A stretch of 64,000 nucleotides of DNA from Lota lota (taxonomy: Eukaryota > Chordata > Actinopteri > Gadiformes > Lotidae). The stretch is from positions 1,672,501-1,736,500 of the forward strand of contig JACYXH010000091.1 in assembly GCA_026745465.1 (NCBI GenBank), read 5' to 3'. Below are positions 16,001-58,654 of this stretch, in pieces. Numbering within the stretch: the stretch's first letter is position 1; the number at the start of each line of letters is the position of its first letter. The notes under the pieces are model-generated. The model had not been told where the DNA came from. It worked only from the letters and a program-made list of their open reading frames with translations, and did no database searches. A program made the translations under genes and the position numbers.

Positions 16001-17586
16001 TTTTTTCCCCAATTTCTTTGTGATATATATTAATAATAATATATTTATATATATAGCGATATATATAATATATCATATAAATATATGATTATTATTAATA
16101 ATAGAAAATAAGAATACAAAGCAAACACAAAAAGCTAGATTTACTCCAGAGTTATGTCAGTTAGATAGCAGGTCAGCTACGACCAAGAAGTAATTCTATG
16201 TTATAACAGAACTTCTTTGGGGAGACGGCACAGAGCCAGACACCAGAAACGGAAAGGGGCGGAATTACAACTGGTTTCCTGTTTCTACCAAAGATAAACT
16301 AATTTGCATGAGTGGCTGAAGCTCTCAAAAGGGGATTTAAAAACGTTTCTACAGTGGCCAGTCTACACAATGTGTAGCTAGTGCTGGCAAAGGTCATCTT
16401 CACTGTTATTGGCAAAATACACGCTTACAGATCGCGGCCTCCAGCAACATGATTGGTTGAAACAAACATGAAGCAAAAATAAATAGAAACGGCGTATTCA
16501 CCCAGATTTGAGATTTAGATATCAGACTTTCACTTAGCTAGCTAGCGAAATTAGTTAATAAGCTAGCTAGAATTCACGACCCACAGTGGCGACCAGTGAT
16601 AAGCGCCACACAAGCCGGCTTGCATTTGCAAGTCATGACATGCATCTAGTCATGTGACACATACCCACTTGAACAGCCAAATCTACAAAATAGGGTTGCT
16701 GCTTACAATAAGAAATATTAGCATAATGTAAATATATGATATCTTAATTTCATTGACAGACACTAGTAAAGATATTTAAGTATTTTAAATACAAAAATGC
16801 TACGGCAAACGGTACCAGAATATTAATTACATGTAGTTTTTTTCATTCGGATCAAATACCCCAAAGTAATTAAATTACGTGCTTTAGTACACTAGCACGA
16901 AGTGTATGAACCTTCGTGTATGAACCTTTGTGTATGAACTAGTGTATGAACCTGAAGCATGAAGTAGTTCCGATTTGTTCACTCTTGTTGACAGGTGTAC
17001 TCGAGATAACAATGCAAGATTTCATGCAAGAAAATGCGATATTATCACAAAAATAACATACAGGTTGTTTAGGACCTACTGAACATCTCAATGGGTTTTA
17101 AATACCTTGACTATAGTGTACTATAATCAAATCAAATCAAATCAAATCAAATGATTAAGTAGTTATGTCAAACCTGTCCAACCTGATTTGGAAATAACTC
17201 ATGCGTGTGTGAGTCATTTGACTTGTTTGTTCACATGGGCCTTAACAATGACACTAATATATTGTTACAACAATACCCTGTTATTGCTTTACCATCTCCA
17301 GTGCTTCTACGTCCCAAAGTGCCAGAAGGACTATGCTGCGACTCACGCAACGGTCCTGAACATATCCGAGCTCCTCCGCTCTCAGCGCAGCGTTCTGTGC
17401 TTCGTGGATCCCAAGGACCAGGCGGACAGCGCCATCTTGACCCAGATCTACGGCCAGGTGGCGGTCTTCCACTCCCTCTTCTGGCCCACCTGCACGTTCA
17501 TCGTGGGAAGCATCATCATCGCCATGGTCAAACTTACCCAACACCTGTCCATCATGTGCGAGCAGCTGAGCCGAATTAAAAGGTGA
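13020..17586 (+). CDS. kcnmb2: Calcium-activated potassium channel beta-2-like subunit
   Basis: Accessory subunit of the large-conductance BK (Slo1) channel at the plasma membrane; it tunes Ca2+/voltage gating and gives fast inactivation. Coding exons are 13084-13133, 14333-14503, 14781-14976 and 17302-17583 plus stop at 17584-17586, with compatible phases. The model is 233 aa; human KCNMB2 is 235. Residues 1-16 start MFLW, a hydrophobic ball tip like the mammalian FIW. TM1 is about residues 45-68. The extracellular loop (about 75-190) contains SVWTEES, YPCLQVYV, CFYVPKC, many cysteines and NAT/NCS/NSS/NIS glycosylation sequons. TM2 is about 192-215 (FHSLFWPTC), and the protein ends LSRIKR. 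The leader before ATG may begin at an acceptor at 13019. The LDKRKTVTAL-AGEDRAILLG stretch favours beta-2 over beta-3. A fish beta-2/beta-3 paralogue remains possible. Confidence 0.9.
13084..13133 (+). CDS. kcnmb2: kcnmb2-like exon 1: N-terminal inactivation ball
   Basis: A 50-nt coding exon encodes MFLWAGSKAHQGGSER plus two bases of an Arg codon and ends at AG|GTACTG. Joined in phase to 14333 it gives ERRPIYHKSREYD, which aligns with the human beta-2 N-terminus (MFIW, then DEKRNIYQK). It is too short to appear as a long open frame. The residues Phe2-Leu3-Trp4 correspond to the pore-plugging FIW triplet of mammalian beta-2. Confidence 0.82.
14740..14780 (+). repeat. (CTT)n polypyrimidine tract at acceptor
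   Basis: An approximately 35-bp TTC/CTT repeat directly precedes the CTCTTCAG acceptor of kcnmb2-like exon 3, so a trinucleotide repeat supplies the polypyrimidine tract. Confidence 0.8.
16028..16106. repeat. AT-rich imperfect palindrome
   Basis: Within intron 3 of the kcnmb2-like gene. The left arm (ATTAATAATAATATATTTATAT) is mirrored by the right arm (ATATAAATATATGATTATTATTAAT), separated by a short TA-rich loop containing GCGAT. The whole could extrude a cruciform. Confidence 0.7.
16203..16490 (+). repeat. Dispersed repeat B, copy 1
   Basis: Diverged similarity to 51232-51530. Shared blocks include GTTTCCTGTTT, AAACTAATTTGCA / AAACTGATTTGCA, AGGGGATTT, TGGCCAGTCTACA / TTGCCAGTCTACA, CTAGTGCTGGC and CCAGCAACATGATT. 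It lies in intron 3 of the kcnmb2-like gene. Non-coding. Confidence 0.65.
17130..17153 (+). repeat. (ATCAA)n short tandem repeat
   Basis: About five copies of a pentanucleotide just before exon 4 of the kcnmb2-like gene. Confidence 0.85.
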
Positions 17587-22133: not shown

Positions 22134-25100
22134 TCACATTGTTTTCCGCCATCTTATCTTCAAGTCAAAGTCAGCTCTCTGGCCGAGCAGATTGTTAAAC
22201 AGCGGCTGAGAGTACAGGAAAAAGTCCCTGCTCTCTTCCAGGCCCTGCGCATCTAAAAGGAGGGTGGCCAGGGCTTGTTCTATGACTGGAGACTCACAGG
22301 CACGATGCTGCACACTATGACTCACATTCCTCATGGCTTCAATGACTAACAGACCCTCACTGGCTGTGGTGTGCGCAGCCCCTCCAACTCCACTCATTAC
22401 ATTGGCTGCACCTCTTTTACTGCTCACTGCGACATTTGTATCCGTCTCTTTTGGACCCGTGTTTCCCATAACCTCATTGGATCCTGCTGTAAGAGTTGCC
22501 GCTTGGTTCATTGCGGTTGTTGAATTATGCCCGTCGGTGGTGGTCCTGTTGAGGTGACCCTTTGGGCAGGCCAGGCTAACATTGCCCACCACCGCCCCCA
22601 CACAGGCGGCTACCCCAGCTCCCTTTGTTTCGCTCGGTTCTTGCTCAGTCCCATTGTCGGTGAGGTGGTGAAATGTCGTAGCCGATAGTGTTTGCCCATC
22701 AGGTTGGGCAGCTATGGGTTTGTGTGTGCCTGAGGGCGGGGTTTCCCGGATGTTTCGGCGGAGATAGGATGCGTAGTCCTGCACCAGCTGGGAGAAAGCC
22801 GTCCTGTAAGAAAGGCGCAGTGACTCGGCTGAGCCAGGAGGCACCGATTTCAGTCGCACCTAGCAAGGCAATCAGAGAAAAAGATAGTAAAACATTAATG
22901 TGCTAGCTTATTAGTAGAGAACAGATATAAATATGATCACATGCTCAATGGCTTTCAATGGACAGTAAGAAGGAAATAAACAATACGACACGATATTGGA
23001 AGACATGCTCTGTTTATATGACAAACCTGGATTTCAATTTGAATGTAAACAGTAATCACAAGCTCGAGAGCATATTGCTTTACCTGTACCTGTCTAACTT
23101 TGGAATGAACTGTATCTACATCACTTCACTTCCCTTTGATAACACCTTTGATAAAACATTTCATATTCACACACTGTGAATTCTACAAGGTATTTGAAAG
23201 CAAAGGCCTGACCTACTCTATAAATAAGTATATATATTACTCTTTAGGTGTTTTGTTTCCAGTCAGCGGCAACCCAAAAACATTTCCACATGTCCCTGTG
23301 GTGGCTCGATGGGGCCACTGGGGAGAAGCAATCAATATCACCTTTGCCCCCTATTCGCCCTAGTGGTCTTGGGTCTGACCTGGTGGATCCTCATGTGCAG
23401 GTGGACGGCGGCGCCCGCCAGCCACTGCCTCATGGCCTCTGAGCTCATCCGCTTCTTGGTGGTCATCCTCTCGTAGTGGTCGAGCAGCTCCAGCTTCAGC
23501 CAGTTGTCATAGAGCTCCGTCGTCTCGGCCATTCCCTCCACGTCGTTGGCCACGCCGGGGATCTGTCGGAGGTAGGCGTGGATGATCCGGCCAATTCTGG
23601 AGGAGCGCCGGATCCCAAATATGCACCCGGTAGCCCACTGCTGCTCCGGGACCTTGGCAGAATGGGGGTGTCACATGTGTGTGTATGTTTGCTGGGGTTG
23701 TAGTGGGTGTGGGGGGGTTTGTTTCAGTCAAATACCTGCAGGCTACTAGAATGATGTCCATCAAGTTGAAAATATGCCACGGGGACAATAGACAACAAAG
23801 ACAATTTTGTTGTCTACCAGTTTTCAATGATGGCATGCCAAAGAAAACAGGTTTCTTCCGGGTGACACATTACAACTGGCCATACCCCTTTTTATCCAGC
23901 AGGTATCTTTGGCATTGTTAATGCATTTTTGGATTGAAAATCATAAAACCATAAATACTATGCAAATTATCGATGAAATGACCTTCAAACCATTCAAAAT
24001 CAACACATCACATTCGGTACAATTCTGTTGTAAACTGGCAGATACGGTGTTCTTGACTTAAACAATGATGTGCTTTCAAACAATGGCATCAGTGACAAAG
24101 TCAACAGGTGTGACATTCTATTGTCGTGTACGTAAACTGACTGGCAGACTGTGGTCATGAACAAATCAAAGGAGCTGATTGTGGATTACAAAATAAGGAT
24201 TTTCTGTCAGCTTTTCCTTGTCCTTGCAATGTTGAATGTTAACATTTGAAATATGTGGTATAGCAACCCAGAAACCTCCACAGACTTCTAAATAAGTTAG
24301 ACACACATTGGTGTTTTGGGGGCAGAAATGTCTCACGACAATACCCAAGACAACACAGATTGAACAGGACAGCGATCTAAACCAGACCAAGGTGTGCGTA
24401 GTTGAGCTGAGACAAGAAAACGTTCTTTCCTATAGTGTATCAATACACCACTAATCACCAAGCACTATTACAGTTGTACTTATCCTACTTTGTACAATCA
24501 CCTGCATTATGTTGTACTCGTATCTTACGTCTACTGTGTAATGCGAATAGAGTTGACCTGATCTAATCTTTATAGTGTGGAATAATTCTGTAGGTAATGT
24601 TTGAGAGTTGTTAAGAAAGAGAGAAACAGCGCAAGAAAGCAAGAACTCAAAGAAATACCCCTCCCTTTCAACTCCCTAACTACGCTACGTTTCTCTGCCA
24701 AAACGTAACGTTGAGAGAATGATTGACAGGCACGATGTTTAATCCGAACCAATCATGGAACAGTTGATTGCTTACAAAATTGAAATTGTCTCAAACAGAT
24801 GCAGGCGCACAGCCAACCAGAACTAATATTCTCAAAGCACATTGTGCAAACAAAATATGTGGTGGATGGCTGTCGGACTTCTAACAAATTACATTCAAAC
24901 GATATCTCTTTAATCGTACCTACAGCCCCTTCGAGTGGTTGAAGAAAGCAAATGGTTAAACGTTTATTCAGCACAAGCATAACCTTTTGCCATTAGAACA
25001 TTCTACAACAGTTTCCTGTGTCATCCTCAAGTCCCCCACCTTTTTGGCCACAAGGTCAAAGAGCACGGACAGGGCCAGGGCGACCACGCCCACTCCTCCA

Positions 25101-25363
25101 TGCCGGACCCTGGAGCTCCCGCCCACCTCCCCAGTCACGTTGCGGCGGAAGGCGGCCAGTTGCTCCGGCGTCATGCCCCTCTGCAACGAGGCGTACTGGT
25201 GCAACAGGGACGCGCGGGACTCCATGGACAGGAAGGCAGTGAGGACGGGGTCCAGGGAGATGTCCGGGACGACACCGGCATCCCTGGCCACGGAAAACAG
25301 CTGCTGAACGGTGGTCTGGGAGGGAAGACAGAGGCTGCTCGCGCTGACGGCCTGCAGGATCAT
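22134..25363 (-). CDS. Uncharacterised 440-aa protein, three exons
   Basis: I do not recognise this protein. Exons on the minus strand are 25363-25040 (108 codons, ATG at 25363-25361), 23652-23380 (91 codons) and 22859-22134 (241 codons plus stop). All junctions are phase 0 with good GT/AG sites (AAG|GTGGGG, CCAAG|GTCCCG, CAG|GTCAGA, GCTAG|GTGCGA). Residues 1-65 are mixed helical with no clear signal peptide. A hydrophobic stretch (about 88-104, VGVVALALSVLFDLVAK) could be a membrane or buried helix. Residues about 109-235 are rich in charged and aromatic amphipathic helix (YDNWLKLELLDHYERM, YASYLRRNIRE). Residues about 245-370 are Thr/Ser/Gly/Asn-rich and probably disordered. The last 60 residues are ordered again (SRDFFLYSQPLFNNLLG). 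Coding DNA is GC-rich against AT-rich introns, which supports a real gene. Confidence 0.75.
24584..24933. mobile_element. MITE family M1, copy 1 (intronic)
   Basis: The left end (TTCTGTAGGTAATGTTTGAGAG) and the right end (AAATTACATTCAAACGATAT, then CTTTAATCGTACCTACAGC) are inverted relatives of each other. Both ends match the elements at 29570-29694 and 32890-33250. It is about 350 bp, non-coding, and lies in intron 1 of the 440-aa gene. Confidence 0.65.
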
Positions 25364-26047
25364 GGCTGCGCAGTTTTATTTTTTTGCTTTTGTGTCAGCC
25401 GCAATGTGAACTTTTTTTTTCCCGGTTGTGACTCTCACTCGCCCTCTACTTATCTTTTGTCTATGTCTTCATCAGCGTGCCGTTGTTTGCGATTTGATGA
25501 TGGATCTTGATGATGAATCACTCGTCTTCATGCCTGTATTCTTTTCGATTCGGTCCCAGTGTTGTAAGTATTGTGAGGTTTCCTGACCCCCCAAAAAAGG
25601 CAGGTTGTGTTTGAACGGTGTGTTGCAGAGTCAATATTTGAGGATTGTGATACGTTGCTCTGGGCTGGTGAGATAGACTAATGGAACATGGGACACTGTG
25701 TAAACTTTTAATTATATTCATGATTTAGGTCTCAAAATAAAACTTTATTGTTTATAACATTATAATTATTATGAAATGTGGCATCAAGAACGAAAACATA
25801 GGCCTACAACTTTTATTGTTCCATTATACACTTTTTTGTTAAAATATAAGGCAAGGAATAAAGGTAAAATATGTTTGAGAGAAGTTAGTTATTGTTCGAA
25901 CCTTTCTGAGGTTTCCTTTGTAACCCTTTTTCAATTAATGAGGAAAAATCTTGACGAAAACTAAAAATAAATAAATAAATCAAATAATTATTATAATTAC
26001 CATTCAACCATTCATCTGGCATATGTCCAATAAATATATCAAATAAT

Positions 26048-26234
26048 TTAAAGGGTAGTTTGCTGATTCAAAAGATTGAGCCTAGTGGAAAGACATTATT
26101 TTAATACACAGTTTTGTAGTCAAAATACTCGTCTTTCTGCCAAATGTGGCATAGTGATTTCAAAAATGGCATTGGTTGTCTTGTTTTAACTACTAACTAC
26201 CTTAATGTGTTGAATCGGCGAACTGTCCCTTTAA
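26048..26234. mobile_element. MITE-like element with 24-25-bp TIRs
   Basis: The left end TTAAAGGG-TAGTTTGCTGATTCAA and the reverse complement of the right end TTAAAGGGACAGTTCGCCGATTCAA match with a few substitutions and one indel. The interior is about 140 bp and non-coding. Structure of a non-autonomous DNA transposon. Confidence 0.7.
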
Positions 26235-26399
26235 GTCTGAAGGCCTTTAATGAAACGTTAACGCCTGGATAACACATAGCGTAAGTGCATTGTTGTTGTT
26301 GTTTTACCATAGGCCTCTCATGCAGAAACCCAGTAGCATGGCAAGACATATCATGGTGACAGCATGATACTTAGCAATTTGCTAAGCTTCTTTGTAGAA

Positions 26400-26469
<70 letters not shown>
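26400..26469. repeat. (CA)n microsatellite, about 35 units
   Basis: Pure CA tract followed by interrupted CACA/AGACACA repeats to about 26520. Confidence 0.97.
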
Positions 26470-26471
<2 letters not shown>

Positions 26472-26602
26472 GACACATTCACACACACACCCACACAAAG
26501 ACACAAAGACACACCCACACCTTCAAAACAGTGTTGACAGCAAGTCAAAAGTGGGCGTTGGTTTCAGTGATAAGACCAAATTCTTAAGCCTTAACTCTAA
26601 CA

Positions 26603-26718
26603 GACACTGCAAGGTGTACTTCACAGGTAGAGACACTGCGGTGTGTGCTTCACAGGTAGAGACACTGCGGTGTGTGCTTCACAGGTAGAGACACTACAGG
26701 GTGTGCTTCACAGGTACA
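26603..26718 (+). repeat. Four 29-bp tandem repeats before the SMB gene start codon
   Basis: Four head-to-tail units of exactly 29 bp, each close to GACACTGCGGTGTGTGCTTC followed by ACAGGTAGA. Units 2 and 3 are identical; units 1 and 4 have two to four changes. The array ends 27 bp before the proposed ATG at 26746, so it lies in the 5'UTR or core promoter of the SMB gene. Confidence 0.92.
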
Positions 26719-26745
26719 GAGACTGCGTTGAAGAGATTAACCAAG

Positions 26746-29700
26746 ATGCTGAGATGCTGGGCTACAACTTGCATTGGACTGACAATAATGCTACAAGCAG
26801 CCAACGGACAAACTGGTGAGTTTAAATGACATCAAAATAATGATTCCAATGATTCAATTCAATTTTGGTGATCAAACAAGAGTTACATTTGCTTGTCCAG
26901 GAGCTGAAAATTTAAGGAATAATTCACCAATATACAATTCTGAAATCTGTTTATTGTTCTCACTCTTGAACAGTTCATTTACTACATTTAGTAATCATTA
27001 TTGACGATTTTGCCAAAAATGTGTAAGCCCTCATTATCAGGCTTCTAGATGGCTATGATTTCTATTGAACTCAATCCCAAAATGCACCAGAACACCGTCC
27101 ACAGGTACACCACCAGCGTAGCTCGTAGCTTAGACGCAGCTCAGAGTCTGATATTATCAACCACCAACTCCGCTCTCTCTTATGCCTCCTTCCTACATAA
27201 AATCTGTTCTGCTGCATGAACGGGCTTAAACTGATGTCACCTGCACCAGCTGCAGTCAATGTTTCTAACACGGAATCTCCAGAATCTGAATTAAATTAAT
27301 TGATATCGTGAAGTGGCTAGTGTAATGGCTTATGGGTAACTTAGGAAATGGTAGCTTGAGAAATGGTATCGCTGCTGTCTACTTTGAGCTTAGTTAAATT
27401 AAAATGACTATTTTAATAGCCTACCATGTAATGGTAGACACAGGAGTCATTTTGTTAATGCTGTATTTGACACTGTTATTCTTTATAAACAAATAAGTTA
27501 TCAAATGTCTGTAAAACAGTAGCTTTCAATTACCGTCGCTTGAGATCCACTCGCCATTGTAAAGCACCAGACTTGGGCTAAGAACTTGTGATATTGCCTT
27601 TATTTTGAAATGAGTCTCTCAAGTACATCACTACATGTGGCACTTGCATGTTGTATCAATTTTGAATCTGGATTTTGAGTTTTTTTAAATGTGAGGTTTT
27701 AATCCAAAATTTGATCTGAATATTGAATGTGTATGTATGTAAGGTTTGAATTGTTATATTGAAACTGAATATTAGTTTACAATTTGTATGTGAATATTAA
27801 TTATGTTTGTGATTTTATTTGTGATTGCATAATCCTGTATAATTTAACAGAATTCTTCGTAGTGAAGCACAATTTCTGTCTTTCTACAATTCTATTTCAA
27901 TGTTGAATAATTCAGTGTCAGTCTGTCGAAAGTTTCAAATCATTTAAGCAAAGATTCAACTTTCTGGTGGCACTGTTCTGACGCCATTCTTCAGCTATAA
28001 TACCTGCCACATCTGGACAACCGGAGGTTACCAGTGGTAGCAACGTGCCGCCAAATCCATCAGCTGAAGCTTCATTAGGTAATGTAATTATTTACAATTT
28101 CACATGAAGTAGCCAGAAATTTAACATTTTGAAGGATGAAAAAGGAAAAACCTTGAAACCAATGGATGAACACTGAATCCAATTTAATGAGGACTTTCTC
28201 CATATTTAGTGACCAACTCTACAACTACGGCTTCTACAAATGGGTCAACAAAACCCACGGCAATAGCTGGGAATTCATTTAGTAAGTTGTTACTTATTAT
28301 TACACAACTTCATAGTAACCAGAAACGATATCCTTTGAAGGAGATATATGTGCACGCAGACACTCACCCACGCACGTACACACACACGCACATACACACA
28401 CACACACGCACACACACACGCACACACACACTTATTCCTGGACAAAGAGTAGTCATACTTGTAGTCATAATGATTTTCTATCTTTGTGCTGCAAGCCGAA
28501 TTCAAAGAAGAATGAGGAAGCTGGCACTGTATTTAACTGTTTTTTTAACTGTGATGCTTTCTGAAACGAATGCTAAAGCATTATATATACAATGTTGAAC
28601 TGTTTTTCAAAAGTTTTACATTGTACTGTTGTGTTTGTTGACAACACATTGTCGGCGCTAATCCTGATAAGTTATCTGATTGTTTATATTGAAAACATTC
28701 AGATAATACTCAAATAAGATAATATAGTACTCAAATAATCCCAATGTAATTTGGTACTGATCATGTCAGCTTCAAACGATAGTGGCTTCCATTTTTGTGA
28801 CCCCATATGTGGAGACTTAACACTTAGCACGTACAGTACTTTGAGTCTACTTCTTTATACTTTTACATACTTTATATGGTGTCTATGGTGGCACGGTGCC
28901 ACCAGACACCATAAATATTTATTATGCTCTATCTTGCTGGTACAATCTGTGTAAAGTTGATAGTCAGTAGCGTATGTTTGCCACATTGTACCAGGTATAG
29001 CGACCCATTGATATCAATGTATCGCTTTGCTGTTTGTATTCAACACATCAAATACACATGGCATATACAGGGCCTGGAATCAAAGTGTGCAGGTGTAACC
29101 GTCTATTTATTTTGGATGCCTACATGTTGATTTCAATCACTAGGAATCCCAGCAGGGGTTAAATAATTTCAATTGATTGTGAAGCAATTGTGTCCTCTGC
29201 TGGAAGGTTGTGCCAGTGATCCCCCACTGTGCTGTCTGGGGCAGGATAACAGCTGTAGAAGGAGCTGCTTCTGTGACGTGGCTTGTCTTCGAATTGGTGA
29301 CTGCTGTAGTGACTTCACCACCACTTGCGTTACAGGTAAAACATTGTTTTTATTATGCAATACATTTCTGTTACATTTACAGAAATGTCTGGGTGTGTCC
29401 TAGGTGGGATGGAACGGTTCCATAATTCAAATTTCACACGTAGATTTGTTGGGCCCCTTTTCAAATAAAGTATAACCAAGTAAAACTTTGTGATCATTTG
29501 CTTCTTCTTTTTGTACACTTTATTTGGGCCAAGGGATATAATGTCCATTACATGCTACCTCATATTAATGGTGCAGTATGTATGATTCAAGAGTTGTAAA
29601 GAGAGTGAGAGGGGAAAAGAGCAGAAAAGAGAATGGTGCCATTTCTAACAAATTACACTCAATTAATAGCTCCAAATTTTACAGCAGCTTTAAGTGTAAA

Positions 29701-32217
29701 AGTTGAAAATGTTTCTCTTTTTTCAGGATTCCCAACAAATCAAACCTCTAATTCCAACAACGAAACAACTTTCCCTATATTTTCCTTTTCAGGTATTATT
29801 TTTCCTTTTAAATAAAATACAAAAAATGACATATTTTTTCATTTAAATCCTTTCATTTAAAAACATATTAAGTTATATAGCAAGTTATATTTTAATTTGC
29901 AAATATATATTTATATTTGTAATAGAGGGGAAAGTAAATACAATAATTAGCCAGTAAATAACAAAAATAGAGATCAATATTTTTTGTGCATGGTTAATTA
30001 GGTACTTCTAATTAGTTAATTAGGTTCATATCTGCCGATATTCAATAGATCTGTGAAATTGTAATATGTACACTACTTCTGTCTAAGTTTAGCCAGAAGG
30101 ACAGTCATTATTCACAATCGATATTCAGCTTTGTCCTGATTTTCATATAACTTTGTGTTTGTGTTCTTTAGGGAAGTGTTCTGAAGAGTCTCTCAAGTGT
30201 TGCTCAGGCTCAAATCCATTATGTTTCAATGGTTGCTTCTGTGATGAAAGCTGTGTGGTAAAAAGTGACTGCTGCCCTGACTATAAAGACACCTGCATGA
30301 AAGGTCAGCTGTTATCATTTAACAAAATAATTTTTTGTAATATATATTGAATGAATATAGCTAACAACAAACCTCAAATCAATGGGTATATTTCCTAAAA
30401 AGCATCACATTCGATTGGAACATGAAATGTATGGCAAATGTTCAGTTGTGGCTGATTGCATATCATGGAGCTCAAGACGTTGCTAGCGTGAAGTGAAGTA
30501 GTAACTATATATGTATGTATATATAAATTATTTGGATATAGGTATATATAAATTGGAATATAAACATATTTTTCATGTTTCCATTTGTATCCACTCTTCT
30601 CTCCCGTCCTCTCCTAGCAATAAACAACACAACTACAACAGTCTCTCCAAACAACACAACTACAACAGTCTCTCCAAAAACCGTCCCCACCACTCCAACA
30701 GGTACCAAATACATCTTAAAAGGAACGGTTCATCCATGTTCAAGCTTATTTTCATGTTTTAGATGTAGGGATCCACAAAACAAAGAATGAATGGACAATC
30801 GACGCAATAGCAAAAGGTTATTGCACACTCGCGCACTCAAAAAAGCGTATCTGCAATTACAAATGTCACATCATATTCAGTGCATTGTAGGACCCTCAAG
30901 GAATTTGTTATGTAGATAATTTGCTATCATAACCAGGACTTAACGCACACTCAACGAACTCAATCAACTCTTTTTGTGACGCTGGTGCAAACAGGTGTAG
31001 GGCTCAAAAACAAGACTCGCGAGGACAGGCAGGTAGAATCAGGGAGAGTAGTCTTTACTGGAGGCAATGGCTCGGTACACGGGTAGGCAGTTGAAGCAGG
31101 GCAGAGGCACAAAAGCGTGAGGCGAAAGAAGAGTCGAGGGGTCGAGATGCGGTCGGGGGGATAGTCGATAAATCACTAGGAACAGAATGCTGGGACGCTT
31201 GACACGGAGGTACAAAGACGAAATCGCACAGAAGGAGGGAAACACACTGACTAAATACAGTAGAAGGAAAGAGGTAATGAGGGACAGGTGAAAACAATCG
31301 ACGCGACGGGGAACGATCACAGGCGGGAAACACGGGCAGGGAGCGACGCATCTGGAACGACAGGAAAAGCCAGTAAAAAGTAACACAGAAAACAATGACG
31401 GAATGAAGGAAACAAAAACATAACTTAAGGAGCAGGGCGAGACGTGACACTTTTGTGTGTTGACATTCTTCTCAAGCATACTTTTTTTTAAGCTGGTGAA
31501 CTGGTATATAATATATAATATACATTATTAACCTCAAATCACTGGACTGTGAGTAAAATAGCATCTTAGCTTCTATTGACCTTGTTTTGTCTTTGAATCC
31601 TTTCAGATCTTCAGAAGTTGATCTTTGCCTTGTCCGTTTCTTTTGTGGCTCCATCCAGTTACAATAATTCGGTCATAAAGAATGGTCTTCAACAGGTATA
31701 GAAATGTATGCGTGTGCGTGTGCGTGTGTGTGTGTGTGTGTGCTTCATCAAATACAATACTTTGTCTCACTACTTACATTGCACATTTAGTTATTTTTCT
31801 TATTGCACAACCCCAGTGAGATGACCAACCGAACCACACCTATTTTCTCATTATTGTTCCCTAAACATTTTAGTTTAACAACATCAAGGCCGATTTGCAC
31901 GCAGAAGTATTTAACTTTGGCTCACAGTTTCTTCACAGATATTTCAGGAAAAATATATCTGTGGTTTGTTCAAGCAGGAACATGCATGCTTTGGTCATTT
32001 CACTGTATATGACAGCAAATTGAATAATATAGTAGTTTCCTAACTATACTATTTAATATATGGCTATATTGACCTATGTGTTCATGTGTTGTTAATTTGT
32101 CTCTTTCCTGTCTGATTCCATTTTCTTTTTGTTCATCTGTTGCAGGCTTTGTCGAAAATAAAGGACTATATAGGTGCAGACATTGACTTCAAGGTCCTCA
32201 AGATTCGAATCAAATAA
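26746..32217 (+). CDS. Secreted mucin-like protein with two somatomedin-B-type domains
   Basis: No gene name can be given. Nine coding exons: 26746-26815, 27995-28078, 28210-28281, 29207-29335, 29727-29792, 30172-30303, 30618-30701, 31607-31695 and 32146-32217 (stop 32215-32217); 265 aa. Residues 1-23 form a signal peptide (MLRCWATTCIGLTIMLQAANGQT). Residues 24-75, 119-140 and 185-212 are short Thr/Ser/Pro/Asn-rich mucin-like linkers with many NxT/S sequons and a repeated NNTTTTVSP. Residues 77-116 and 143-182 are two SMB-type modules with identical spacing C-x6-CC-x6-C-x3-C-x-C-x3-C-x5-CC-x6-C. Residues 213-265 look like a beta-helix-beta half of a SEA-like fold. Exons 2-7 are all phase 1-1 and so duplicable as cassettes. 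The weakest acceptor is that of exon 4 (GGAAG|GTTGTG). Likely extracellular; function unknown. Confidence 0.8.
29570..29694. mobile_element. MITE family M1, internally deleted copy
   Basis: The left end GGTGCAGTATGTATGATTCA and right end (TTCTAACAAATTACACTCAA ... TACAGCAGCTTTAAG) match both termini of the longer copies, but the centre is missing. It lies in intron 4 of the SMB gene, 33 bp before exon 5. Confidence 0.7.
31000..31452. mobile_element. Probable terminal part of a teleost transposable element
   Basis: A GC- and purine-rich block in an AT-rich intron, with AGTCTTTACTGGAGGCAATG, GACAGGTGAAAACAATCG, GAACGACAGGAAAAGCC and GGAGCAGGGCGAGACGTGAC. The style (ACAGGTGAAAACAAT, GGAGCAGGGCGAGACGTGACA end) resembles a widespread fish repeat that I know only by pattern. 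The minus-strand open frames here have low-complexity composition and I do not call them genes. It lies in intron 7 of the SMB gene. Confidence 0.5.
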
Positions 32218-32636
32218 GAACCCCCAAAAAACTTTAGTCATTCATTTATAGTAGGGGTATTTAGGTCAGCGGCACCTGCCTTGATATTATAATAATTACA
32301 CTGGGCCACAGTTTTCCTTAAATCATGTTGTAATGTGTTTTAACAATATCAATATTTCCTATGTGACGTATTTCTTCCTGGGGTGCTTTGGTGTTTGAGT
32401 ATTAACAGAAACACGGCCCGCGCCGCACAGTGCTTCAGCTCCGCCTGCGGTGTGCATGTGACCCACATCTAGCAAACTTCCTTGTGCTCAACATCATTTT
32501 AAGATGTGGCTTTTCACCTACTTTCTGCATTCAGGTTTTTGATGATATGCCATCAACTCCCAGTGTAGGCCTACTACATTTATATATCCATTGGTTTTGA
32601 GGTTATTTCACAACTGGACCTTTCAATATATTTAAC

Positions 32637-32642
32637 AATAAA
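32637..32642 (+). terminator. Candidate poly(A) signal of the SMB gene
   Basis: AATAAA about 420 bp downstream of the stop codon; the first canonical signal noticed on the + strand after the CDS. Confidence 0.45.
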
Positions 32643-32889
32643 TGCCAGTCCAGGGCATAGAGGGATTCTTACACATATGGTTTTGTAGCAGAAAATACAA
32701 ATTATGAGTATTTGCACCAATAATTACAGCTGATTAAAATTGTTGGAACAAAATATGCTGTTTTCTACAGAGAATGCTGTCATTGTGCACATTATAGGCA
32801 TCATGTAGCAAGCAAATATTATGGTTGTAATGGGCTCTGCTTCATTAAGTGTTGATGATGTGTTGTTATTTTATTATCATGGTCTAGCT

Positions 32890-33250
32890 TAAAGCTGATG
32901 ATTTGAGAGTTGTAAAGAGATGGAGCAGGATAGAGCGGAAGAGAGCAAGATTTTGAAACTAAACAATCCAAAAAACATCCAATCCCTCTGCTCCCGCCCT
33001 CCGTATGTTTGTACGCACCTGTGATGGACAGGCTAGATGGATTCCCCAAACCAATCCGGGAAGAGATACCCTGATTGGTCAGAAATTTGTCAGGAGCTGT
33101 GCAAAATCGAAATAGTCTCCTGCAGAGGCAGGCTTAGTCAACTTGAAACGGATATTATCACAACGCATTTCACTAATTAATAGGTGACTGCCATTTCAAA
33201 CAAATTACATTCAAATAATAGCTCTTAAATCATACCTACAGCACCTTTAA
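32890..33250. mobile_element. MITE family M1, copy 2
   Basis: The left end (GCTGATGATTTGAGAGTTGT) and right end (ACAAATTACATTCAAATAAT, then AGCTCTTAAATCATACCTACAGCACCTTTAA) match the copies at 24584 and 29570. The reverse complement of the right end (AAAGGTGCTGTAGGTATGAT, then TTAAGAG) aligns with the left end of copy 29570, showing terminal inverted repeats of about 25 bp. Confidence 0.7.
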
Positions 33251-33259
33251 ATGTGGCAA

Positions 33260-34090
33260 TTTCCTTATGAAGGACTTCGGAATTGACATGAGTAATTTGA
33301 GTGAAAACAAAACTGAATTTCTTTGCCTTCTTTGCCTATGCCTATGAGAAACATTTTGTTTCTCAAAATGCTCTTGTACAGAAAGACTACTTCTCAGCAA
33401 TGTGCTATCCTGCAATGTTAATATCAAAGCACCAACAGTCTATCTTAAACTATTCAATTACAAATGTGATTACATTTAAATACATGTCAATTTAAGTCAA
33501 TAGGTGTAGTCAAATATTTTACATTTAAGTATTTTTCTGAAAAATCGTCATTAGACCGCGGCTTAACATTGACACGTACGCCTATCTGTGTGCAGTAAAA
33601 TATATATGAAAGCAAGTTTACTCGTCCAATTAATATTAACATTTAATTAATGTTAGCCAAGGACTAATATTTGACGATATTTGACCATATCACTCACCTG
33701 TTAACATGTCAGTCTTCTCGAGCAAAAAACGTTTGTCATGCATTGACTACTATCGCTTGCCTTTGCGTCAGAAATAATGACGGCGTTAGGACATGAGTTT
33801 AATTGACCTCTTGACTCGAGTGGTTGTATTAATAGACTGTTGTGGAGTATGTACATGCAACGTCCCTGACAAGCGTGCATGTTCGCATGTCGGAAAGGGC
33901 GGGGCCAGAAGAGAAACGTGGAGACATTGATTGACATGATGCGTGCGCAAGGATATTATCACGATTACAGTAGAATAGCATTCTGGATTTGAATAAAGAA
34001 GAAGGGCCTGCTTTAAACGTGGGCTACTATATGATGCCAGGTGGTCATAATACGTGGCAAAAGCCACCATTTTTACATGAATAAAGAGTC
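33260..34090. other. Intergenic spacer, nothing recognised
   Basis: AT-rich to mixed sequence with no coding exon, microsatellite or element recognised. Confidence 0.4.
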
Positions 34091-37050: not shown

Positions 37051-37112
37051 GAGCCTGAAAGCTCGCACCAGGCCCGTATATCTGTCTGCTTACCTCCAGC
37101 CCCACCCCGATT

Positions 37113-42154
<5,042 letters not shown>

Positions 42155-49300: not shown

Positions 49301-49915
49301 GACACTACGAGACAGTGTCTGCAGGTCCTTAAAAAGTCTCAATTCAGATTTCTGTTGGCCTTGTCCTGTCCATTGAGTCACGGGATACACTGCTGACCAA
49401 CTCCTGCTGTTGTTGAGACTCCCTGTATAAATATTCGTTAAAATAAAACAAAAGACAAAAATATAAATTATATATTATACTATAGTATACACTATAACTA
49501 TATATTATATGTAAACAAATTATGAACAAGATGCATAGTGAACAATATGTTAAGTTAGTATTATTCTTTTTTTATTGTCGTTTCTTAAGCAAAACCCCAA
49601 ACAAAAGTTACAAATGTTACTCAAATAAAGTCAATTTTCTCAAAGGGCATCACAGGCCAAAATACATGATCCCCTCTAATCCTAATCCTGCTAAAGGGCA
49701 AGGGAAAACTGTATCAAGGGAGAAACCATGAGAAGTAACGCAGAAGACTTACATTTTGTGAAAAACCAACAACCTCATTCCCGTGTGCACTACTAGGCAG
49801 CACAGACCACTGACCCACGGTGGTTAAAGTCTCTGTTTGTTTGGCAGCTCTGCTATACCCTGTGCCCTGCACTACGTAGGCGTATGCACACGCTATACTC
49901 TCCCCAGAGTCTCTC

Positions 49916-49923
49916 TATATAAG
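49916..49923 (+). promoter_or_regulatory. TATA box of the fetuin-like gene
   Basis: TATATAAG lies 70-77 bp upstream of the ATG at 49993. With a start site about 25-30 bp downstream this leaves a 5'UTR of roughly 45 nt, the normal arrangement for a TATA-driven liver secretory gene. Confidence 0.65.
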
Positions 49924-49992
49924 CACCCTGGCTTCATACCGCTGCACCCATCCCTCTACTGCTTCTCCTCCCCCAGCCAGACCGTCATCATC

Positions 49993-53533
<3,541 letters not shown>

Positions 53534-56121: not shown

Positions 56122-58654
56122 TCACAAAGGAAAACTAGCATTGGCTGGCGTTAGTGGGCTACTGTTGGTAGACATAAGTGGGCTGTGCCTGTAGATGTGA
56201 AGGCTCTCGGCCACTTCCATCAGGGTCAACAGGACGTCATAAGCGACGGCAAACAGGAAGTAGATAGGAAGCAACCAACTCAGGCTGAAGACCCGCCCAC
56301 TTACCGGCAGTGGAATGGAGAGGTGTCTGGGTGGACAGAGAGGAGAATAATACTGTTAATTCATTGATAACACTCATTTATAGCGCTGTTTAAATGCTGA
56401 AACACGCAGTCTAACAGTGGATTCTGACTGAGTCAAACCAACTCACACACTTCTACAATTATCTGGGGGGCCAAATAATATTGCTTGTGGGCCAGCTACG
56501 GCTCGCAGGCCGCTCATTGCCGGCCCCTGTCATAGAGGATCACATTATTTTTAGCTTCCTTGTACATACAACATTAATGGAGATAATTACCATGACTTTA
56601 ATATAAGAAATGCTGCCTTGAGGCAAGTTACAGTACTCGATATGGAGTCTCAGCCTCTTGGTTCATTTTCACAATGTCCCCATGCGACCCATACTGAACG
56701 TCCGATAGATAGAGCAGGTGAAGCCTTTCAGAGTCTTGAGAAACTCAATACACGATCATCATTGGCTGTCAGTTTTTCACAGAACTGTAGCCGTAGCTTC
56801 GGAGCCACATGGATGAAACAGGTTTATTCTTATGTTTATAGTCATACATACGTTTATTGAGTCCGCCACTATAGAAGTTTTATAAGGGTGTTTTTCTAGA
56901 AGTACGTTTCCCGGCGTACGGTCCGTAATTGGTTGCACTTACATGTCAATCAGACCTCTTCCTGATAGGAAGGCGGTTCTTGACACAGTTACTCAACACT
57001 GGGTCCCAGACTTTCCGGTTTATTGAGCAGTGTACTTTGATAGTTTCCCCAAACAATATTGAAATAAAATAGTTTTTATAAAATTTATTATATTCTTGGA
57101 ATATAACGCAGATATTTCTATGTTAAATATGGGAAGATGTGGTTCATCCTATTTGGCTGGAGGACGCGTTTTCAATGCATAAGTAGGATAAATCCAATGC
57201 ATGTGGTAGAAGAGTTACGGACAGTTCCATTGGAAATGAAAGAACCCCCATCGTTATGACAGGTATAAGAATAGCATAAGAATAGTATAAGAATAGCATG
57301 TAAGAATCTGCACTCACTGGAATCTGTGTGCTTTGGAGGCCTGCAGCATGGCGAAGACAAACAGTCCCACCTCAGTGTTGAGGAATAAAGAAACTACCTT
57401 GTCCAGCATCACAACAAAACCCTGTGGATTTACAAACAACACACACACACACACACACACAGACACTCAGACACTCACACACAATAAAACGGGCGTAGCT
57501 AGTTCTGGCGGAACAGTCTAGTCATGCAGCTGACAGCTGATGGCTAACGCGGTCCAATTAAACGCACGTACACTGATAGGCGTTCTCAAACACGTTCTCA
57601 AACACTCACTCTGCGAATCTAAGTGTGCTGAGCAGAATTACTCCCACCGCCACCCAGCCTCTACTGGCTTTGGTTCTGCTCTGTATTGTATGTGACCTAA
57701 ACACTGGCTTTGGTTCTGCTCTGTATTGTATGTGACCTAAACACTGGCTTTGGTTCTGCTCTGTATTGTATGTGACCTAAACACTGGCTTTGGTTCTGCT
57801 CTGTATTGTATGTAACCTAAACACTGGCTTTGGTTCTGCTCTGTATTGTATGTGACCTAAACACTGGCTTTGGTTCTGCTCTGTATTGTATGTGACCTAA
57901 ACACTGGCTTTGGTTCTGCTCTGTATTGTATGTGACCTAAACACTGGCTTTGGTTCTGCTCTGTATTGTATGTGACCTAAACACTGGCTTTGGTTCTGCT
58001 CTGTATTGTATGTGACCTAAACACTGGCTTTGGTTCTGCTCTGTATTGTATGTGACCTAAACACTGGCTTTGGTTCTGCTCTGTATTGTATGTAACATAT
58101 GGGTTGAGATATCTGATGTACCCCATGGGGGATTGTATAGCGCTCCCTGTTGTCAAATGTTGGTATGCTGTTGGTATTCTGTATCTGACATCTGTATGTC
58201 ATGCTTTAAATCCTACAGAAGGGAGCACCAGAAAAGAGTGGAACAATACCGCCAAACTAAATTGTATACCATTTCAAGAAATAAATGGTTAAATCGATGA
58301 CATGAGTGATTCCTGACAGAACTCACCAAATTGCACCAAATGCAAAAATGTTTTGAAAAGTTTTTTATAATGTCTTGTGCATCTTATGATGCTGCAGATA
58401 AGCCTATGCATCCTTCATAGTATTTATAGTTGGTTTCCTCTGCTTTTGAAGTTTCAACAGTACTGCCCAATTTATAGATTGAATGTCCAAGACGTGTTTT
58501 TCTAATTTGTTCTACACACTATCAAGCAGCTTACCCTTGGATCGCAAGCCGAGATGACAAAGATGGTCCCAAACGCCAGCAATGACATGCACCCACTGGC
58601 AAGGCTATGACAAAGACAGACAGAGTCAGAGAGAACCAGAACGAGAGAGAGAAA

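Follow-up and report, generated by a model that had tools for sequence, protein, structure and literature searches.

The window analyzed here is a 64,000-nucleotide stretch of the Lota lota genome, and its plus strand carries a gene model of nine exons at positions 26746–32217, which together form one frame of 265 residues (Table 1). The model is built from the DNA of this one species, from which the exon limits were re-derived, and all eight introns follow the GT...AG rule. A 29-bp repeat of 4.3 copies (26602–26727) ends 18 bases before the start codon and is possibly part of the 5′ untranslated region.

Table 1. Exons of the gene model; SMB, somatomedin B; positions are those of the window.
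Exon	Positions	Strand	Phase	Content
1	26746..26815	+	ends in phase 1	start codon and signal-peptide-like leader (from hydropathy)
2	27995..28078	+	1-1	Ser/Thr/Pro-rich linker
3	28210..28281	+	1-1	Thr/Asn-rich linker; two N-glycosylation sequons
4	29207..29335	+	1-1	SMB module 1, ten cysteines; Pfam 22.2 bits alone
5	29727..29792	+	1-1	Asn/Thr-rich linker; two sequons
6	30172..30303	+	1-1	SMB module 2, ten cysteines; Pfam 22.1 bits alone
7	30618..30701	+	1-1	Thr-rich linker; 27-nt in-frame repeat (NNTTTTVSP)
8	31607..31695	+	1-0	C-terminal module, first half; no Pfam match
9	32146..32217	+	0 to stop	C-terminal module, second half; no Pfam match

Upstream of this gene lies an exon (17155–17586) whose Pfam match, CaKB with E 1.1e-32, assigns it to the beta subunit of a calcium-activated potassium channel, and the minus strand at 22134–25375 holds two long, protein-like open frames (22134–22859 and 24968–25375) that have no Pfam match. 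Downstream, a probable gene for a membrane protein with leucine-rich repeats and an immunoglobulin domain lies at 37059–42154 on the plus strand (LRR_8, E 3e-13; ig, E 8.3e-5; the membrane span was recognized by eye). The translation of 49828–50307 looks by eye like the N-terminal part, leader included, of a fetuin-like protein, and Pfam gives there only a sub-threshold proline-rich match. The window also contains many CA repeats and, at 57663–58093, a 40-bp repeat in 10.8 nearly perfect copies (99% matches). On the minus strand of the upstream flank, some 50 kb from the window, there are WD-repeat exons (L016:1-573) that look by eye like those of TBL1XR1.

Exons 4 and 6 each encode a module with exactly the spacing C-x6-CC-x6-C-x3-C-x-C-x3-C-x5-CC-x6-C. 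Both modules retain the core of the Somatomedin_B family (PF01033), CxCx3Cx5CCx6C, and resemble that family also in their length of about 40 residues and in their phase 1-1 exon. They depart from it in the arm, C-x6-CC-x6-C-x3: the six core cysteines match the classic eight-cysteine spacing, but the arm has four cysteines in place of two. In the whole protein Pfam matched Somatomedin_B over two stretches (29 bits, E 1.3e-6, cut-off 23.1), and this independent match argues that the cysteine spacing is not due to chance. Taken singly, the modules fall slightly below the cut-off of 23.1 bits, and their match begins at profile position 7, so that the core fits and the changed N-terminal arm remains unmatched. 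Because the Pfam family can be recognized without the arm, the departure there marks an SMB variant. In an alignment anchored on the core, the two additional cysteines would be one from the CC and the one that lies four residues before the core, and they could plausibly form a fifth bond.

The two modules are identical at 16 of 43 positions, ten of which are the cysteines themselves, and their duplication is therefore old. A self-comparison of 26001–33500 gave no sign of recent exon duplication, since it returned simple repeats and a few matches of 41–81 bases, all outside the exons. A two-module profile run over the six frames of the window recovered both modules, as it must by construction (E 9e-26 and 3e-25); the next best match had E 0.15. 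No further SMB module was found in the window or in its flanks of about 189 kb, of which about 15 kb read N (15,100 bases, in the upstream flank). Viral contigs were also searched with the tandem; five stretches fitted a pattern and none was a relative. A structure model of module 2, computed from the single sequence and preceded by about 26 residues that come from the intron, reached a mean pLDDT of 39.7, too low to judge a disulfide-knot fold by.

The splice sites were also considered independently of the model. Open phase-1/1 exons of 51–160 nt within 26830–31600 whose acceptor and donor both score 3 or more number 16 and include all six modelled exons from 2 to 7, at ranks 1, 2, 5, 8, 10 and 13; these are raw ranks, from generic splice weights. 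The modelled acceptor of module 2 is the top-scoring one. A weak point of the model is module 1, whose acceptor (3.6) scores below a phase-0 acceptor inside the module (4.6).

A PF01033 profile search of the 575-Mb genome gave at least 15 other modules among the matches listed (30 candidates scored), the two of the window not being among them. The counts leave out second readings of one module where loci overlap (L005 and L008), frames with CCCC runs and low-complexity cysteine runs. Counted from the first arm cysteine, 14 of these 15 Pfam-found modules have eight cysteines and one has nine, and the CC-x6-C arm occurs in none of the 15 among the matches listed. Other ten-cysteine modules may have gone unseen elsewhere in the genome, since those of the window were themselves missing from the matches listed. 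The module with nine, the second of locus L002, is a classic SMB apart from its extra cysteine, which stands three residues ahead of the core CxC. The preliminary description of this locus had proposed a tandem pair of SMB modules, each with two cysteines more than usual, and the exact spacing, the Pfam match and this genomic comparison bear it out.

The top-scoring upstream acceptor is in phase 1 at all 15 other modules, and the top donor at 12 of them (two have another phase and one has no donor in range). A symmetric exon is thus ordinary for SMB. The symmetric 1-1 exons pointed out earlier do appear in the model, for modules and linkers alike, but with phase 1 so regular among the SMB modules of this genome they do not point to a cassette gene of an unusual kind.

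The three linkers, of 54, 23 and 28 residues, consist of Ser, Thr and Pro to 48, 43 and 64%, respectively. The protein has nine sequons, overlapping ones included, of which eight are in the linkers and one is in the tail. In exon 7 the 27-nt unit is present in 2.1 perfect copies, and a recent gain of repeats has therefore probably lengthened this linker. The term mucin-like, used in the first account of the gene, overstates this composition, since the longest linker has 54 residues at 48% Ser+Thr+Pro and the richest only 28 at 64%. The long Pro/Thr/Ser domain of a mucin is absent, and the composition is better described as that of linkers that carry sugars. Residues 1–19, the leader, are the only 19-mer with a mean hydropathy above 1.2 and are mildly hydrophobic (1.22); the scan of all 265 residues by 19-mers found no second span over that value.

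By eye, the tail, which comprises the C-terminal 54 residues, reads as strand-helix-strand, like half of a SEA-type module. The intron that divides it is in phase 0, whereas the exons before it are in phase 1. A whole SEA domain is longer than 54 residues. The tail might thus be the remnant of a larger surface protein (e.g. SMB with a SEA-like or receptor part), of which the gene would be a shortened relative after loss of the membrane part. SMB domains do occur in adhesion receptors of amphioxus, according to one report (PMC2246102). This origin appears unlikely: the tail has no Pfam match at E up to 10 (a search in which most weak matches are lost to HMMER's filters), the window and the readable flanks contain no second copy, and the hydropathy scan showed only the leader.

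Somatomedin_B was the sole family found in the whole-protein Pfam search at E up to 1, which separates the gene from the described proteins that it most resembles. Proteoglycan 4 (PRG4, lubricin) combines two SMB modules of eight cysteines near its N-terminus and Ser/Thr-rich sequence with a hemopexin domain and a mucin domain of considerable length. It shares with the present protein the two SMB modules and the Ser/Thr-rich sequence; here, in contrast, the modules have ten cysteines, the linkers are short and the hemopexin domain was not among the matches. ENPP1 and ENPP3 also have a tandem pair of SMB modules, and their SMB parts are the best-matching solved chains by sequence, although both matches are weak (ENPP3, E 0.0061; ENPP1, E 0.088). 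Their modules are joined to a phosphodiesterase, which Pfam did not find here.

The extra cysteines may have parallels elsewhere. The SMB modules of the TINAG type (TINAG and TINAGL1) and of SBSPON appear to carry a similar CC-x6-C arm ahead of the core, and for this reason the ten-cysteine variant itself is probably not new. The gene could then be orthologous or paralogous to a described gene of one of these types. In PMC7981590, TINAG and TINAGL1 are presented as SMB joined to an inactive cathepsin-B-like domain, with an extracellular matrix protein as the product, and SBSPON has a thrombospondin type 1 domain by its name, as given in PMC12320502. Neither a cathepsin-B-like nor a thrombospondin type 1 domain was found by Pfam here, which makes this kinship improbable. 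Full-text literature searches, some of which carry little weight because they returned no paper at all, listed no work on this gene and no named gene with this layout; a named orthologue may exist among fish proteins.

That the exons are real remnants of a decaying or mis-modelled gene without a functional protein is very improbable, for although the model comes from DNA and the acceptor of module 1 is weak, the frame and all ten cysteines are intact in two copies as diverged as these and every intron has its GT and AG.

We therefore consider that the locus probably carries an ordinary but apparently unnamed gene for a secreted, sugar-coated protein with two SMB-family knots in a ten-cysteine form in place of the usual eight. 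As far as the sequence allows, we estimate at roughly 60% the probability that the product is a secreted extracellular glycoprotein made of a leader, two SMB modules, glycosylated linkers and a C-terminal module of small size. What the sequence shows directly is the layout of the exons, the spacing of the modules, the Pfam match, the sequons and the lack of a second strongly hydrophobic span. From these we infer that the gene is transcribed and that its product is secreted, glycosylated and disulfide-bonded, and we likewise infer its binding role and its site of action.

The leader would direct secretion of the protein as a matrix or mucosal glycoprotein. The two disulfide-knotted modules would be kept apart by the Ser/Thr/Asn-rich linkers, which, N-glycosylated and probably also O-glycosylated, would act as stiff spacers. 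SMB modules, such as that of vitronectin, bind other extracellular or cell-surface proteins, and because of what they do elsewhere the paired knots would most likely serve as binding heads for another protein of this kind.

It is also conceivable, though doubtful, that the secreted glycoprotein belongs to an undescribed and possibly fish-specific family, made up of ten-cysteine SMB knots and glycosylated linkers, in which species would differ in their number of knots as symmetric exons were gained or lost. The overall picture of the SMB family would not be altered by this gene. If orthologues are confirmed, it would be a small and clean case of the ten-cysteine SMB variant in tandem, free of an enzyme or hemopexin partner, and would be useful for learning how the cysteines pair and which surface binds.
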